Shown: one piece after another, positions 30,851 to 36,400 of the stretch
Position numbering within the stretch: position 1 is the first letter of the stretch
Layout: the number at the start of each line of letters is the position of its first letter
From: a virus
Strand: one strand, 5' to 3'
DNA: 38,215 nucleotides
IMG/VR virus record: IMGVR_UViG_3300010151_000043
Span: 1 to 38,215 of that record
Notes under the pieces: model-generated
Told to the model about the DNA's origin: nothing
What the model saw: the letters and a program-made list of their open reading frames with translations, nothing else
The model's database searches: none
Position numbers and translations under genes: made by a program

Positions 30851-30868
30851 CTTACCAACGCTGGTAAG
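30851..30868. repeat. palindrome family copy 1 (CTTACCA-ACGC-TGGTAAG)
   Basis: An 18-bp perfect inverted repeat with a 4-nt centre, immediately upstream of the ribosome-binding site of the gene starting at 30836. As DNA it looks like a dimer operator; as RNA it would form a 7-bp hairpin beside the Shine-Dalgarno. Confidence 0.75.
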
Positions 30869-30872
30869 CGGG

Positions 30873-31301
30873 TTAAATCATCCCGAGTTGAATCAGCCAG
30901 CTCGGGGCTCCGTGTGGACACGTTCCATCAGGCTCGACCCGACACCCATCGATGGCCTCAGCGGTGTCGAAGAGCATGTTCTCGACCTGCGCGGCGGACG
31001 GGCGGGCATACTCCTCCCCGTTCCAGGTCACAGTCGGGCCGCCCCTCGGCTTGGCCTTGGGCTTAGGCTCGGGGATCTCCGCCTTGAACAGGACGTACCC
31101 GGTATCTTCCAGCCTGTTGAACCGGACTCGGATGCGCTCCAGGTGGGGGTACATCTTCGCCAGGTCAGACTTGTTGGTGTACGGCCCACTGGGGGTCCGA
31201 AAGTCTAGGTTCTTGCTGAAGTCGGCTTGCGCCTCCTCCGGCGTCTCGTAATCCCGGCCATACGCCGGCATCAAAGGTTCGATTCCAAACAGTCCACTCA
31301 T
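30873..31301 (-). CDS. conserved small phage protein (AYGRDY...CPHGAPSW)
   Basis: 142 residues. LMPAYGRDYETPEEAQADFS with LDFRTPSGPYTNKSD is the first block, RIRVRFNRLEDTGYVLFK the second. A Pro/Lys linker leads to VTWNGEEYARPSAAQVENML and CPHGAPSWLIQLGMI. Both halves look like separate small domains that occur in other phage and plasmid proteins, so this may be a fusion. Function unknown. GGAAGGAGAGAAGAG leader. Confidence 0.65.
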   Translation of the reverse strand: MSGLFGIEPLMPAYGRDYETPEEAQADFSKNLDFRTPSGPYTNKSDLAKMYPHLERIRVRFNRLEDTGYVLFKAEIPEPKPKAKPRGGPTVTWNGEEYARPSAAQVENMLFDTAEAIDGCRVEPDGTCPHGAPSWLIQLGMI

Positions 31302-31858
31302 CTCTTCTCTCCTTCCGGGCAGTTAGCCCTCTTTCTCCACTCAAGAAACTTGAACCAAGCGAGCCGAACCCTCTGCCACAGGGTGAGCTGCCCAACGATG
31401 ATCACCTCGTCCAAGTCGTAGTTGTATTCCCGCTTCCTTACGTCGAGCTCGTTGCTCGCGGCGAAGTCGAGGAACTCGAGGACCTCCTCGGGGCTCAGCC
31501 ATCCGCGGACCTGGCCGCCGCAGTTTTCGTCGAACGAGTGCCACATAACGTCGTCGGCCTTCATCATGTTGGGGGTTTCACCTTCACGGATGTCGCGCCA
31601 AGCTGCGATCTCTGCCGTGGTTGCGGTCCACTCCTCGCTCCGCTCCGCCGCGTTCAGTGAGGCCCTGATCGGGAGGTCCCTGTTCGACGAGTAGTTCCCG
31701 GGCCCCCACTGAACGCTGACGGTGTTCCCGTTGGGGAGCTTCACGTGGAACCCGTGAACACTAGGGGTTGATAGGGGTTGGTAATGAACGGTCCACCGGG
31801 CCGAGCCCCGGATGCCCGACGATCGGTCGTACCTCTTGCCGAATGCGCAAAATGTCAT
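31298..31858 (-). CDS. hypothetical protein, 186 aa
   Basis: GGAAGGAGAAGTGAG leader before ATG 31858. Beta-rich N-terminus (GFHVKLPNGNTVSVQWGPGN; YSSNRDLPIRASLNAAERSE), then VMWHSFDENCGGQVRGWLSP and a helical FLDFAASNELDVRKREYNYD. It ends in a Lys-rich NCPEGEKR partly encoded by the next leader. The middle (ITAWRDIREGETPNM-like) suggests a protein with a small phage-specific alpha/beta fold. No family recognised. Confidence 0.6.
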   Translation of the reverse strand: MTFCAFGKRYDRSSGIRGSARWTVHYQPLSTPSVHGFHVKLPNGNTVSVQWGPGNYSSNRDLPIRASLNAAERSEEWTATTAEIAAWRDIREGETPNMMKADDVMWHSFDENCGGQVRGWLSPEEVLEFLDFAASNELDVRKREYNYDLDEVIIVGQLTLWQRVRLAWFKFLEWRKRANCPEGEKR

Positions 31859-31879
31859 CTCACTTCTCCTTCCGGGCAG

Positions 31880-32095
31880 TTAGCCCTCTTCATCTGTTGT
31901 TGTTGGTGGCTCTGGCTGCGCCAACGGCAGCCAGTAAATGTCGTGGGGCCAGTAGCAGCGGTCCATACAGCAGCCGCCGCCGCCGTAAACCCAGACGCCA
32001 GCCTTCGGCACCCTTACGGGGATCGTTTCATCGTAGGCCGGGTCGAACATCCAGTACCAGCCAACCTCAGTCGGCCAAGTTGTTGTCCATTTCAT
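31880..32095 (-). CDS. small Trp/Tyr-rich hypothetical protein
   Basis: 71 residues from ATG 32095 (GGAAGGAGAGAAGG leader). MKWTTTWPTEVGWYWMFDPA and WVYGGGGCCMDRCYWPHDIY, then WLPLAQPEPPTTTDEEG. Many aromatic residues and three cysteines. The opening WPTEVGWYWM is typical of short phage proteins of unknown function. The end lies over the next leader. Confidence 0.65.
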   Translation of the reverse strand: MKWTTTWPTEVGWYWMFDPAYDETIPVRVPKAGVWVYGGGGCCMDRCYWPHDIYWLPLAQPEPPTTTDEEG

Positions 32096-32415
32096 TCCTT
32101 CTCTCCTTCCCGCCAACTAGGTGGCAGACGCTCGCCTTCGGCCAGCGCTTCTCGATACCCCGCCAACTCCGCTAGGAGCGGACGAAGCCAGTTCCAACCT
32201 GCGACATTGCAGGTCACCCTTCCTTCGTGTGGTGTGAACAGTTGAGCCCCGTTCCCCAAGCCGGCGTCCTGGACACCGAAGGGGCGCAGCAGCTCCATGT
32301 CTCTGTCCGCTAGGGCCTTGATCGCATCAGGGCCAAGCCTGGCCGCGGCATCCATGTACTCGTCTCGCCACGCGAGCAGGACACTCTCGTCACGTTGGTT
32401 CTCAGAATCACTCAT
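32092..32415 (-). CDS. small hypothetical protein with EGEKE tail
   Basis: 107 residues, GGAAGGAGAGAAGG leader. Helical (LAWRDEYMDAAARLGPDAIK; NWLRPLLAELAGYREALAEG), ending PPSWREGEKE, where EGEKE is the reading of the downstream ribosome-binding site. ATGA coupling to the next gene. No family recognised. Confidence 0.6.
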   Translation of the reverse strand: MSDSENQRDESVLLAWRDEYMDAAARLGPDAIKALADRDMELLRPFGVQDAGLGNGAQLFTPHEGRVTCNVAGWNWLRPLLAELAGYREALAEGERLPPSWREGEKE

Positions 32416-32882
32416 TCCTTCTCTCCTTCCTTTAGGTACTGGCAGATCTCATCCAGCAGCTCGCTCATCTCAGGCCACGGACAGGCCTCACCGAAGAGAC
32501 CCTCGATGACATCGATGCACCGCAGCAACAGGTCACGGGCGAGCGGGTGCCCAGTCATCTGGCGCAGGGTGTCGACCACCTCGGTCTTGATGTCCTCTTC
32601 GTCCCAACGACTCGCCGCCTCAATGTCCGCCTTGCTGACCTTGTCGCCCTCTAGGTAGAGGAAGTCGTCCCTGAGGAGGTCAGCCGTCTCCGACAGTTCG
32701 GTGGCAACGTCCTCGAGGTCGCCCTCGCAGTAGGACGCACGCACCAGGTAGTACGCCGCAGACTCCCTGATGGAGACCCCGGTGAGGCTGTTGCCTGTGT
32801 CATGGATGTTGTCGCATGTGTTTCCGACCATCGACTCGATACAGTCGCGCCGGAACGTTGCGATTCGTTCTTCTTTACTCAT
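32412..32882 (-). CDS. hypothetical acidic helical protein with EGEKE tail
   Basis: 156 residues. Strongly acidic and helical throughout (VASELSETADLLRDDF-like, DIEAASRWDEEDIKTEVVDT), with four scattered cysteines. Ends in QYLKEGEKE from the next leader. GGAAGGAGAGAGGG upstream of ATG 32882. No family recognised. A DNA-mimic or inhibitor role could be imagined from the charge but there is no specific evidence. Confidence 0.6.
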   Translation of the reverse strand: MSKEERIATFRRDCIESMVGNTCDNIHDTGNSLTGVSIRESAAYYLVRASYCEGDLEDVATELSETADLLRDDFLYLEGDKVSKADIEAASRWDEEDIKTEVVDTLRQMTGHPLARDLLLRCIDVIEGLFGEACPWPEMSELLDEICQYLKEGEKE

Positions 32883-33097
32883 TCCCTCTCTCCTTCCTCG
32901 TAAGCCCGCAATGTCTCAGCCAGCCGGATAGCCTGAGCGAAGTCCCTAGCGACCTGTTCGTCTTGCCAACTCGGCGGGATTCCGGCTCCCGGGGGGGCGT
33001 GGCGACGTCCGTCCAGGTACCACCTGAGCACCAGGAAGACCGACTCGAGTGTCTCCGGTGAGACGGCCGACAGTGGGCCGACGGCTATGTTCTTCAT
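32879..33097 (-). CDS. small hypothetical protein with EGERE tail
   Basis: 72 residues from ATG 33097 (TGATG with the previous stop); GTG 33100 is an alternative start. ETLESVFLVLRWYLDGRRHA and ARDFAQAIRLAETLRAYEEG; the end EGERE is encoded by the next ribosome-binding site. A palindrome of the TTACCA family lies ~23 bp upstream, inside the preceding gene. Unrecognised. Confidence 0.55.
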   Translation of the reverse strand: MKNIAVGPLSAVSPETLESVFLVLRWYLDGRRHAPPGAGIPPSWQDEQVARDFAQAIRLAETLRAYEEGERE

Positions 33098-33249
33098 CAC
33101 AGTCCCTTCTCGCCGTCCCTACCACCACTGGTAAACGGCAACTTCAGTGGAGCCATCTTTCGACGGTCCCGGTTAATGTCCGCGCTCATCTGCCTGAACA
33201 GACGGCGCTCTCTCCTGTCTCTCAGCCACCGCATGAATCGGTGCAACAT
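33097..33249 (-). CDS. 50-residue Arg-rich peptide, first gene of the small-gene operon
   Basis: ATG 33249 is chosen for the AGAGAGGAGG element 6 nt upstream; the longer frame would run through simple repeats. MLHRFMRWLRDRRERRLFRQ is a basic amphipathic helix, followed by a polar end. Two palindromes (33284-33301, 33311-33328) stand in its leader and one inside its 3' end. A small nucleic-acid- or membrane-binding peptide is possible. Confidence 0.5.
   Translation of the reverse strand: MLHRFMRWLRDRRERRLFRQMSADINRDRRKMAPLKLPFTSGGRDGEKGL
33120..33133. repeat. palindrome family copy 2 (TACCA-CCAC-TGGTA)
   Basis: A 14-bp version of the repeat; the outer base pair is lost. It lies ~23 bp before the ATG at 33097, within the upstream 50-codon gene. 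Confidence 0.7.
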
Positions 33250-33283
33250 CACTCGCCTCCTCTCTTTAATTGACGCGCATCGC

Positions 33284-33301
33284 CTTACCAGCACTGGTAA
33301 G
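33284..33301. repeat. palindrome family copy 3 (CTTACCA-GCAC-TGGTAAG)
   Basis: A perfect 18-bp inverted repeat, 35 bp upstream of the ATG at 33249, and 27 bp (start to start) from copy 4, with the same centre GCAC. Confidence 0.8.
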
Positions 33302-33310
33302 CAACATCGC

Positions 33311-33328
33311 TTTACCAGCACTGGTAAA
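33311..33328. repeat. palindrome family copy 4 (TTTACCA-GCAC-TGGTAAA)
   Basis: A perfect 18-bp inverted repeat with the same centre as copy 3. The pair would place two bound dimers about two and a half helical turns apart. Confidence 0.8.
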
Positions 33329-33420
33329 CGGCTCGCGCGAGACGCACGTATGCCTATGCCTATGCCTATGGGTATGGGGGGGGGGCTACTCCCACTGGGG
33401 CGGGTAGCACCAGGACTGCC

Positions 33421-33434
33421 TACCTGTCTTGGTA
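33421..33434. repeat. palindrome family copy 5, degenerate (TACC-N6-GGTA)
   Basis: Only one half (CTTACCA on the minus strand) fits the consensus well. It stands 17 bp past the 3' end of the tRNA-like gene. It is listed as a probable decayed member. Confidence 0.35.
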
Positions 33435-33451
33435 AGTCAGTCCGAAAGAGG

Positions 33452-33649
33452 TGGGACGCCCGGGACTCGAACCCGGAACCGTTCGGCAATAAAGCCTACT
33501 CCGCCTCGCATTTACACCGTGTGATCGGCACGGCGTGTCGGCCTTTTGTCGGGGGGATCAGCCCCAAGCCAGCGCCCTTTCGGTCGCTGTCCCTGATTAA
33601 GGGGAAAGCCAGCAGCGAGGAGCCGCTCTACCAATTGAGCTAGCGACCC
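33452..33649 (-). tRNA. tRNA-like gene with ~125 extra nt in the anticodon/variable region
   Basis: On the minus strand the 5' end reads GGGTCGC-TA-GCTC-AATTGGTA-GAGC-G, i.e. acceptor strand, D stem and a normal 8-nt D loop. The 3' end has CCGGG-TTCGAGT-CCCGG (a perfect T arm) and GCGTCCC, which pairs with the acceptor 5' strand at six of seven positions (one U-U). Between them lie 147 nt instead of ~22. GCTCC (33623-33619) can pair with GGAGT near the 3' side as an anticodon-type stem, enclosing several hairpins including CAGCG-ACC-GAAA-GG-GCGCTG with a GNRA loop. No CCA is fully encoded (A then CCTC). It could be an intron-containing tRNA or a tRNA-like RNA. The amino-acid identity cannot be read. 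Confidence 0.55.
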
Positions 33650-33760
33650 TCTTCTAGATCATTACTAGTTCCTACACGAGCTCTCCGCTTGGTTGTAGGC
33701 GTGGATGGACGCCTCGTTACTTGTATCCCGCTGCTCGTGCCCAGCGGCGTTGTCGTTTTG

Positions 33761-33776
33761 CTTACCACCATTGGTA
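33761..33776. repeat. palindrome family copy 6 (TTACCA-CCAT-TGGTAg)
   Basis: A TACCA-CCAT-TGGTA core with one half extended to CTTACCA. It lies 112 bp upstream of the tRNA-like gene and 17 bp outside the left arm of the 17-bp inverted repeat. Confidence 0.7.
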
Positions 33777-33793
33777 GGCGGCGCGTTCAGAAG

Positions 33794-33810
33794 CCAAGGG
33801 AGTCTGTGGA
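33794..33810 (+). repeat. left arm of 17-bp inverted repeat
   Basis: CCAAGGGAGTCTGTGGA matches exactly, in inverse orientation, the arm at 34024-34040; similarity continues inward as nGAGCC. Together with palindrome copies 6 and 7 on the outer sides it forms a mirror-symmetric 300-bp unit. Confidence 0.7.
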
Positions 33811-34023
33811 AGAGCCCCGAGACGGTGGTGCTGGCTCGTCCTCGGTCATTGCGGAGGGGGGCGGCAATGGACGATGGCCCGGCGTGCTCTGGCGGGGACT
33901 CGGCCCCGTACCGCGGCGCGCTTGCGCGCCTCCTTATCGCAGCAGCATCCAGTTCGACACCTCCATCCCGCGCCCCTTCAAGTTGGCGCGGTTTGACGAG
34001 AGCACCAAAGCGCCCGCGGCTCG

Positions 34024-34040
34024 TCCACAGACTCCCTTGG
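34024..34040 (-). repeat. right arm of 17-bp inverted repeat
   Basis: The reverse complement of the left arm (33794-33810), perfect over 17 bp and 213 bp away. The palindrome copy 7 follows after 10 bp, mirroring the left side. Confidence 0.7.
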
Positions 34041-34050
34041 TCTTGGTGGT

Positions 34051-34066
34051 TTACCACCATTGGTAA
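34051..34066. repeat. palindrome family copy 7 (TTACCA-CCAT-TGGTAA)
   Basis: A perfect 16-bp inverted repeat with the same centre (CCAT) as copy 6, placed symmetrically to it outside the right arm of the 17-bp inverted repeat. Confidence 0.8.
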
Positions 34067-34175
34067 TCGTCGTTTTTCGGGGCCAAAGGCATTGGGTAGC
34101 GCCCATTGGGTGGCTACCCCCCGCGGCTGTACCGCTCCTGGTCAGTCCATAACACTCCCTTCGGTTCAGATTGGC

Positions 34176-34191
34176 TTACCATCAGTGGTAA
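34176..34191. repeat. palindrome family copy 8 (TTACCA-TCAG-TGGTAA)
   Basis: A perfect 16-bp inverted repeat. Read on the minus strand, an AAGGGAGTGTTATGGA segment related to the 17-bp inverted-repeat arm follows within ~15 bp. Confidence 0.8.
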
Positions 34192-34281
34192 ACACCTCCG
34201 GTACCCACGACACCGTTGGTCGTGAGCACCGGAGGTGGGTCGGGAGGGACGATGCCCCCCCCCGACTCACCCGATGCGCGA

Positions 34282-35199
34282 TTAAACTGCCTGAGCCTTG
34301 TCCTCGGCTCGGATGACACCCTCTGCCAGCGCCGCGGCGTAGAATTCGCAAGCCGCGCTCACGAACTCCACGACCTCTTCCGCGTTCAGGGGAGGAGTCC
34401 CGTTCGCAATCACGAAGGACTCGATGACCCGCTTGCCAAAGGCTGCCTCAAGGCTGCCAGCGTCACCGTCGACCGCTTCGTTGGAGGAGTCGCCAGCCTC
34501 GCCAGCCTTCGCCTCGCCAGCCTTCGCCTTGCCATCCTTCGACGCCTTGGACCGCTTCTTGGTGTCCTTTGCGATGTTCTCGACGAGAATCTTCGCGTAC
34601 TCACCAATCCCGATCTCCTTGCCGTTCTCGTCCAGCATGGTCAACCCATGACAGGCCTGCCGAATGGCATCGAGACGCTGTGCAGCCAAGGTGATGTGAG
34701 GGCACCCAGGGTCGAGGGGAACGAACCCCACAACCTGAGATGCCTTGTTCGTTCGGACTGCATAGCCCAAGCGCTCCAGAGTGGCCCCAAGACCCTTCTG
34801 GGCACGGGGAATCCCGTTCCGACACTTGCTCGGAGCGATGGCACCCTCGCTGTGCAGCGCGGTAAGGCCCGCACCACAGAAATCGAGGGTAGCCACGACA
34901 CCCTTGCTCGTCAGATTCAGGTCCTTGCTCTTGGCGATGGGGAGGGTCCTCGGATCCATCTGGACCCGATTCACCACCGTACCATCGGCCAAGACCAGCG
35001 GCGAACCGCAGTTCCCAGCACTGACGGACCAGAAGATGGGGAGTCCCGCAGGACCCTGAGAGGCCAGCGTGTAGTCAACCCCAGTGGGCTCCTCGCGCAG
35101 ACCAATCGCCAACTCGTCCATCGTGAACTGGAAGGCCACGTTCGCGTCATGGATGTTCCGAATCACAAACTCGACGTCTTCAATTTTACCTTTACCCAT
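34282..35199 (-). CDS. hypothetical protein, 305 aa, palindrome-controlled
   Basis: Starts at ATG 35199 (GAGGAG 8 nt upstream; the longer frame begins in the repeat-bearing leader). The N-terminal ~200 residues are a compact alpha/beta-type sequence (VEFVIRNIHDANVAFQFTMD; VSAGNCGSPLVLADGTVVNR; ATLDFCGAGLTALHSEGAIA). An Ala/Lys/Gly/Glu-rich linker (KAKAGEAKAGEAG) is followed by a helical C-terminal segment (EEVVEFVSAACEFYAAALAE). Palindrome copy 9 lies 38 bp upstream. It is by far the largest gene in the right-hand regulatory region. I do not recognise it. A structural or nucleic-acid-binding role is equally possible. Confidence 0.7.
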   Translation of the reverse strand: MGKGKIEDVEFVIRNIHDANVAFQFTMDELAIGLREEPTGVDYTLASQGPAGLPIFWSVSAGNCGSPLVLADGTVVNRVQMDPRTLPIAKSKDLNLTSKGVVATLDFCGAGLTALHSEGAIAPSKCRNGIPRAQKGLGATLERLGYAVRTNKASQVVGFVPLDPGCPHITLAAQRLDAIRQACHGLTMLDENGKEIGIGEYAKILVENIAKDTKKRSKASKDGKAKAGEAKAGEAGDSSNEAVDGDAGSLEAAFGKRVIESFVIANGTPPLNAEEVVEFVSAACEFYAAALAEGVIRAEDKAQAV

Positions 35200-35236
35200 A
35201 CTCACTCCTCGCGGCACAGGGCCGCTTGGTTATCGC

Positions 35237-35252
35237 TTACCACCACTGGTAA
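35237..35252. repeat. palindrome family copy 9 (TTACCA-CCAC-TGGTAA)
   Basis: A perfect 16-bp inverted repeat, 38 bp upstream of the ATG at 35199 and positioned to control it. Centre CCAC as in copy 2. Confidence 0.8.
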
Positions 35253-35326
35253 ACGGTTCGTACAGGTAACCGGTTCTCAACTGTCCTCTTTTGAGCCCGC
35301 GAAGGCTCAGGCCTTTCGGCCTTGGG

Positions 35327-35509
35327 TCATGGCTCGCTCCGGAGGATGTAGGGCTTCTCCGACTTCGCCCCCTTGGGCGGGTGGTACAAGTACCAAATGG
35401 TACGCCGACGAACACCGCTCGTTTTTGTGGCGACCACAGGACCCTTCTCGACTCCGACCACGGGCATGTGCGGGTAGTTCTCCCGAGCAAAAGTAAGCAT
35501 GTCCATCAT
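35327..35509 (-). CDS. small basic hypothetical protein
   Basis: 60 residues with AGGAGGG before ATGATG at 35509. MMDMLTFARENYPHMPVVGV then KGPVVATKTSGVRRRTIWYL and YHPPKGAKSEKPYILRSEP: a compact, basic beta-type protein. The competing frame on the same strand (35307-35543) lacks a ribosome-binding site. No family recognised. Confidence 0.6.
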   Translation of the reverse strand: MMDMLTFARENYPHMPVVGVEKGPVVATKTSGVRRRTIWYLYHPPKGAKSEKPYILRSEP

Positions 35510-35592
35510 TCCCTCCTAGGTTAGTGGTCTCCCACGGGTTCAAAGGAGGACAGTCAAGAGCGCGATTACCTGCATTGAGCCCACCGGTCTGA

Positions 35593-35934
35593 TTAAAGGA
35601 CAGTCAAGGTAGGGGCGGAAAGGTCCGTCCCGTCGGTGACATAGGTGGTTCGTGTTTCGTGAGCAACGGAGCGGGGAGCCCCACGGCGCACACGGTCAGA
35701 CCCTTCGTTAGGTTCTTGGGGGAGACGTCCAGCAGCAGGAATCCTACTTTTGGACTTGCCCGCAGTCTTCGCGTTCCGCTTGCTGTTGGTCGCGTTCCCT
35801 TCCGCAGTGTGGGCCCGGCACTGAAAGTAGAGTGCAATGGCCCGTTCCTCGGGAGTCTTGGCAACCTTGGCAGACGCTACGGGCGTAGACTTGCGGGCCC
35901 TCACCTTGATTCGATTACGTTTGGCATTTCGCAT
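35593..35934 (-). CDS. Lys/Arg/Ala-rich hypothetical protein
   Basis: 113 residues, start 15 bp after palindrome copy 10. MRNAKRNRIKVRARKSTPVA, a helical VAKTPEERAIALYFQCRAHT and a basic, low-complexity middle. Weak ribosome-binding site. Overall highly basic, as in small DNA-binding proteins. It is accepted mainly because the palindrome sits at its start as with other genes of the region. Confidence 0.45.
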   Translation of the reverse strand: MRNAKRNRIKVRARKSTPVASAKVAKTPEERAIALYFQCRAHTAEGNATNSKRNAKTAGKSKSRIPAAGRLPQEPNEGSDRVRRGAPRSVAHETRTTYVTDGTDLSAPTLTVL

Positions 35935-35948
35935 AGCAGACCCCGTTC

Positions 35949-35964
35949 TTACCAGTGCTGGTAA
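35949..35964. repeat. palindrome family copy 10 (TTACCA-GTGC-TGGTAA)
   Basis: A perfect 16-bp inverted repeat ending 15 bp before the ATG at 35934. The centre is the reverse complement of that in copies 3 and 4. Confidence 0.8.
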
Positions 35965-36382
35965 ATGAGGACCAATGGACTCAATGCAAGTAATCGCGCA
36001 TCTATTGGTCGTTCGTGAACTAACCCGGGTTCGCTGGCTCGCCCTTTCGGGGTCGTGGCTCGTTTCCCCTTTCGGGGCGTCATGGCTCCCAGCGTTAGCC
36101 GGGCGGGACGTTCGTTTTTATTCGATTGTGCTGTCGTCGGTTTCAGTCCATCGCGCTCCGTTCGTTGTGTTCGTGTTCCGTTGACACCCAAAATCTAGGA
36201 CAGGACGAACGGGACCACAAGCAGCCTGGTGACAACTAAACTAGGCAGAATCAAAAGACCAACAAAATCAGGTACTTGCACGGTTTTCTGATTTGAATCG
36301 ATTTTTCGAGGGACCCTTAATCGGTACCCTGTAAGGTCACAGTGTCGGATTTCCTAGCAAAACCAGGCACTTAGACGTGACG

Positions 36383-36400
36383 CTTACCAGCGGTGGTAAG
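36383..36400. repeat. palindrome family copy 11 (CTTACCA-GCGG-TGGTAAG)
   Basis: A perfect 18-bp inverted repeat between two TCAGGCACTT-like boxes; no gene starts next to it. It is the last copy before the right-hand structural operon. Confidence 0.8.

Follow-up and report, generated by a model that had tools for sequence, protein, structure and literature searches.

Phage tRNAs are usually seen as translation helpers or as substitutes for tRNAs cut by host defences. Among tRNAs, tRNA-Lys is the target of the defence nuclease PrrC (PMC10264068). An RNA without an anticodon loop would not be a substrate for PrrC. Non-coding RNAs linked to tRNA genes have also been described in phages, namely GOLLD and ROOL (PMC12286853), and an engineered tRNA scaffold, in which the anticodon arm of a tRNA-Lys3 frame is replaced, is a stable RNA in E. 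coli (PMC3753655). In the literature searched, with few subscription papers covered, we found no description of expanded phage tRNA-like RNAs lacking the anticodon arm. Here we analyzed a tRNA-like element in IMGVR_UViG_3300010151_000043, a marine virus of bacteria, whose record (positions 1-38,215) is referred to below as the window. If a phage RNA keeps the tRNA frame without decoding, the tRNA shape would have another use, such as processing, stability or the occupation of tRNA-binding factors. We give about even odds to a phage-borne tRNA-Lys gene having been converted, at this locus, into a tRNA-like RNA that does not decode and that occupies a non-coding cassette of its own behind an operator; the main rival is a decayed relic.

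Arms and parentage of the element

The element covers 33452-33649 (198 nt) and reads on the minus strand from G1 at 33649 to the discriminator A73 at 33452, as delimited by its letters and by the two-block tRNA score introduced below. The acceptor, D and T arms with the elbow residues of a functional tRNA are all present. The 5' half (33625-33649, minus strand) consists of the acceptor strand GGGTCGC, the dinucleotide TA and the D arm GCTCAATTGGTAGAGC, and the 3' half (33452-33481, minus strand) of the variable region CGGTT, the T arm CCGGG-TTCGAGT-CCCGG, the acceptor strand GCGTCCC and the discriminator A. Pairing is complete in the stems of the D arm (GCTC-AATTGGTA-GAGC, 4/4) and the T arm (5/5), and 6 of the 7 acceptor pairs form, with a T.T mismatch at 4-69. 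The full set of elbow residues can be assigned (T8, A14, A15, G18, G19, A21, T54, T55, C56 and A58), and A9 stands beside T8 between acceptor strand and D arm. The variable region gives an A15-U48 Levitt pair and is still readable beside the T arm, so that the loss is mainly that of the anticodon arm. The discriminator is followed by CCT, not CCA, leaving the CCA incomplete. The initial annotation had placed the three arms at exactly these coordinates, naming no strand; it gave 147 nt in place of the anticodon and variable region, and we count 148 nt between D stem and T stem.

The consensus patterns of the D arm and of the T arm have one exact match each in the 38 kb, both within 33452-33649. 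The two-block tRNA score, which combines a position profile of 423 tRNAs over both halves with acceptor pairing, reached 54.8 bits, against a maximum of 25.8 in 100 dinucleotide-shuffled windows and a median of 52 for true tRNAs. The tRNA frame is real, because its score lies far above the shuffles and its arm patterns are unique in the window. Chance assembly of tRNA-like motifs, in favor of which we see nothing except the absent conservation, is refuted by a two-block score that exceeds twice the best of the 100 shuffles, and its probability is negligible.

Judged by sequence similarity, both halves derive from a tRNA-Lys. An exact copy of the 25-nt 5' half, which is identical to tRNA-Lys 5' halves, turned up 13 times in the genome collection, 12 times in a tRNA-Lys gene called by ARAGORN and once in an interrupted tRNA-Lys copy. 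The 3' half is nearest to the same tRNA-Lys genes (4/30 mismatches); as the genes compared had been fetched by the 5' half, this agreement is only partly independent evidence for a single tRNA-Lys origin. A composite of two different tRNAs is disfavored because both halves match the same genes. We also rejected a class II (Ser/Leu/Tyr) reading with a variable arm GGC-TTTATT-GCC, since it would leave 8 nt between variable stem and T stem and since each half is that of a tRNA-Lys.

The inserted segment

The 18 nt found at positions 26-43 of a normal tRNA are replaced by 143 nt (33482-33624, minus strand), in which there is no U33 anticodon arm and for which no homologue was found. We removed every single contiguous stretch exhaustively, requiring a 5-bp stem and a 7-nt loop with U33. 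Excision left the anticodon stem fully paired in 13 candidates, of which none (0/13) had U33; the required arm was found in the element neither directly nor after one excision. With its decoding part replaced by about 140 unrelated bases, the RNA cannot act as a normal tRNA, and since no single excision restores both the paired stem and U33, the element is no recognizable intron-bearing tRNA. BLAST returned no homologue of the insert in phages, viral contigs did not contain an 18-mer taken from it, none of the genome contigs carried an expanded copy sharing the start of the element, and an arm search with a gap range admitting 148 nt gave 8 matches, none related.

Family searches were similarly empty. 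ARAGORN with default settings matched neither a tRNA nor a tmRNA at the element, and Rfam, searched at the gathering threshold and at E up to 10, gave nothing relevant: no match to intron families, tmRNA, GOLLD or ROOL, with matches to mascRNA and EBER1 dismissed as chance T-arm matches. The Infernal-type family check suggested by the initial annotation came back empty in Rfam for tmRNA and introns, in agreement with its remarks that the element does not look like tmRNA (no ARAGORN or Rfam tmRNA match) and lacks a visible group I intron core (no intron family match). Known group I introns exceed about 125 nt in size and the insert measures about 125-143 nt; neither a detectable catalytic core nor an anticodon-loop insertion, as in a tRNA containing such an intron, was detected.

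The same annotation had proposed an unusual intron, and a translating tRNA with a protein-spliced or self-splicing intron in its anticodon region does find some echo in our results. With introns allowed, ARAGORN reported a tRNA-Ala(cgc) with a 105-nt C-loop intron, and the predicted fold contains a helix, GCUCC-UCGC / GCGA-GGC-GGAGU, similar to a relaxed form of the BHB motif (a 4-bp helix between two 3-nt bulges at the exon junctions); as drawn there, the motif has no inner helix and loop position 33 would be C. However, the ARAGORN product is a 95-nt, class II-shaped molecule that misfits the tRNA-Lys arms. A 5-bp stem with U33 results from no contiguous excision, no intron family matches and the archaeal splicing endonuclease is not known from bacteria. 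We regard an intron-bearing tRNA as improbable.

The insert had also been described as structured. The hairpins named at the time (GAAA tetraloop, GGGG/CCCC and ACAC/GTGT) are present in the predicted minimum-energy fold, but excess structure is not borne out: against dinucleotide shuffles, z was -0.72 for the whole RNA and -0.51 for the insert alone, and because folding is no better than that of shuffles of the same composition, the structure of the insert is not established. Within this minimum-energy fold, itself not above shuffles, a possible closing helix joins GCTCCTCGC with GCGAGGCGGAGT, with a 3-nt bulge, at the place of the anticodon stem (33498-33623, minus strand), and kissing of the predicted insert loops CUGAUCC, CCGAUCA and UUAAUCA is plausible by eye. 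More speculatively, comparison by eye with tRNA-Lys suggests a possible degenerate anticodon arm, GTAGG-CTTTATTG-CCGAA, with 3/5 pairs and an 8-nt loop (33482-33499, minus strand).

These observations bear on what kind of RNA this is. The initial suggestions of a tRNA mimic and of a tRNA which captured another RNA both survive, given the intact frame, the missing anticodon and the tRNA-Lys character of both halves; with no relative found for the insert and no excess structure in it, capture of another RNA stays a conjecture. The mimic or scaffold reading has the strongest support, yet it is unproven because a single sequence of the RNA is known. The decayed relic, that is, a functionless phage tRNA-Lys gene recently broken by insertion into its anticodon part or replacement of that part, is a serious possibility, if one to which we assign less than an even chance. 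A single occurrence not seen in relatives, an insert not structured beyond chance, the acceptor mismatch, the incomplete CCA and the possible degenerate anticodon arm are all consistent with it. Yet the damage is limited to the anticodon arm, the D and T arms being unchanged at invariant sites, and a clean insertion should leave matching anticodon-stem halves, of which none match with U33.

Genomic setting and relatives

Related contigs were located with two proteins, and two of them (L124 and L125) stop short of the locus. Contig L126 has the downstream 73-aa gene in common with the window, and no arms were found in the 2.8 kb upstream of this gene. L123 has a 156-aa gene in common with the window; no arms were found there. 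Synteny at this point is poor or absent in the available relatives, which leaves little scope for the conservation test proposed in the initial annotation. The 311-aa gene upstream of the element has no homologue in L126 or L123, so synteny is one-sided. Overall, the tRNA-like RNA was represented by one sequence only in the searched data.

Across 33100-34280, codon scores were about zero or negative for all open reading frames tested, compared with 0.17 to 0.42 for the tested genes. Ten copies of the palindrome TTACCA-N4-TGGTAA are present in 30852-36399, where 0 are expected, and several of them lie 15-120 nt ahead of an open reading frame led by a ribosome site. Two others, at 34051 and 33762, stand instead ahead of non-coding sequence, namely a 255-nt stretch and the tRNA-like RNA. 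The second of these copies, TTACCA-N4-TGGTAG (33762-33777), lies about 112 nt upstream of the element on the minus strand and is the candidate operator of its cassette. As far as motif positions can tell, this placement supports transcription of the folded stretch and the tRNA-like RNA from the same kind of cassette; a sigma-70-like promoter was not found. The relatives carry other palindromes, ACTGCCACCTAGGTGGCAGT and TGTCGATTAATCGACA, at the same position ahead of small genes. Such dispersed small-gene palindromes span 30852-36399 in the window, 1049-2977 in L126 and 1181-3757 in L123, differ in sequence per phage and look like co-evolving repressor operators.

The 255-nt stretch (33790-34044) is likely a second structured RNA. 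It has no coding signal and folds markedly on the minus strand (z -5.68), and the plus strand also folds (z -4.71); the predicted fold of -140.8 kcal/mol has a closing helix of some 26 bp, and two copies of TTACCACCATTGGTA flank the stretch. Neither an Rfam match nor a phage homologue was found. From its modeled fold, either a structured RNA or a mobile element with inverted repeats is conceivable, and the stretch may be the more robust RNA when set against the tRNA-like element. In L126, very strong hairpins of the form CAGAGC...CTGTGTTCACTGAGAACA follow small genes at 2001-2200 and in several nearby windows (z down to -10); these are probably terminators.

We also considered whether the element is an attachment site that the phage formed from a tRNA-Lys gene of its host. 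The attP sites of phages usually hold a 3' tRNA piece and not also a separated 5' half, which counts against such an origin. In its favor, tRNA-Lys genes serve as sites of integration, and a tRNA-Lys carried by a phage can be of importance for lysogeny (PMC10865867). The record, which may be a fragment, showed no domain of a tyrosine or serine recombinase (integrase), and we regard an attachment site as very improbable.

Similar architectures and comparison with known systems

A first survey for the same architecture gave 120 matches, mostly tandem tRNAs. The two-block scan, run over all fetched loci (1.35 Mb, 1221 ARAGORN tRNAs) with known tRNAs left out, returned five cases beyond the window (the L007/L089/L148 family, L034, L040, L088 and the chromosomal L143), a count that is not a frequency because the loci had been fetched for tRNA-like arms; one shuffled pass returned 0. 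Two more, in L129 and L132/L133, were found by eye. Expanded or interrupted tRNA-like elements are thus seen in phage contigs L034 (6814-6952, minus strand), L040 (8133-8242), L088 (3182-3362, minus strand), L129 (about 278-460) and L132/L133 (the second tRNA of a pair). They are mutually unrelated, save L132 with L133, and some, e.g. L040, may be interrupted ordinary tRNAs. In the actinobacterial Allokutzneria (L143, 4128-4257), an extra tRNA-Lys copy is interrupted in its anticodon loop by about 57 nt and retains both anticodon-stem halves (GTCGA/TCGAC); that interrupted tRNA-Lys copies exist speaks for the decayed relic. This GC-rich chromosome gave other tRNA-Lys-like matches elsewhere in the genome.

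The L007-type family is present in eight contigs with three distinct sequences (L007 7426-7612, L089 1854-2039, L148 2635-2832, plus L149-L153). Its RNA, about 186-200 nt long, has full acceptor, D and T arms and no anticodon arm, and that of L007/L089 has no Rfam match. The RNA is more conserved than its flanks, and a hairpin GATTAG...CTAATC varies from 6-nt or 7-nt loops to an extended helix while its stem stays paired. Given conservation above the flanks and a stem kept despite length change, selection appears to act on at least one expanded tRNA-like RNA that lacks the anticodon. No insert homology was found between this family and the window RNA; the layout is common, the sequence is not. 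Because they escape tRNA and Rfam scans run with default settings, expanded tRNA-like genes are perhaps under-counted, and a family conserved over eight contigs renders the question testable. We tentatively suggest, at somewhat better than one chance in three, that tRNAs without an anticodon have evolved independently in unrelated phage lineages and serve there as natural scaffolds for small non-coding RNAs, the window RNA being one and L007/L089/L148 a conserved one.

RNase P, the tRNA 3' enzymes and CCA addition all act on a tRNA through its acceptor/T/D half, and the window RNA should therefore be matured and stable. As a non-decoding tRNA-like RNA, it would be transcribed from the palindrome-led cassette, have its ends trimmed by RNase P and the tRNA 3' enzymes, and persist as a stable product whose 143-nt insert would be the working part; alternatively, the whole RNA would occupy tRNA-binding factors. 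In infection, its likeliest tasks would be to keep host factors that bind or target tRNAs occupied, or to display the insert as a small RNA. We prefer this reading because the frame is far beyond chance and both halves are tRNA-Lys, because the anticodon arm is gone while the other arms keep all invariant residues, because the stretch is non-coding and lies in an operator-led cassette array, because unrelated phages have the same architecture, with the L007 family conserved above its flanks, and because replacing the anticodon arm in an acceptor/D/T frame gives a stable RNA in E. coli (PMC3753655). Against it stand the single sequence, carried by no relative, an insert with neither excess folding nor relatives, the missing sigma-70-like promoter, the acceptor T.T mismatch and the incomplete CCA, as well as an architecture common with other phages yet without insert homology.

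Compared with bacterial and phage tRNA-Lys, the window RNA has an exact 5' half, a near-identical T arm and variable region and the same acceptor length, but has no anticodon arm, carries 143 nt instead of 18 and shows the acceptor T.T mismatch. Like tmRNA, it has tRNA-like ends joined by a long insert; unlike tmRNA, it has a full D stem and gives no ARAGORN or Rfam match. GOLLD and ROOL are far larger and have no Rfam match in the window. The other phage elements (the L007/L089/L148 family, L034, L040, L088, L129 and L132/L133) similarly hold a long segment, framed by the acceptor, D and T arms, in place of the ordinary anticodon arm, but they have different tRNA parents and unrelated inserts, and only the L007 family and L132/L133 occur in more than one genome. 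Finally, the engineered tRNA scaffold is man-made for stable RNA production, whereas the window RNA is natural, known from sequence alone, and has an insert without excess folding. In both, the acceptor, D and T arms are retained and the anticodon arm is replaced by other sequence, and by this analogy a non-decoding tRNA-like RNA would be the natural counterpart of the engineered scaffold.
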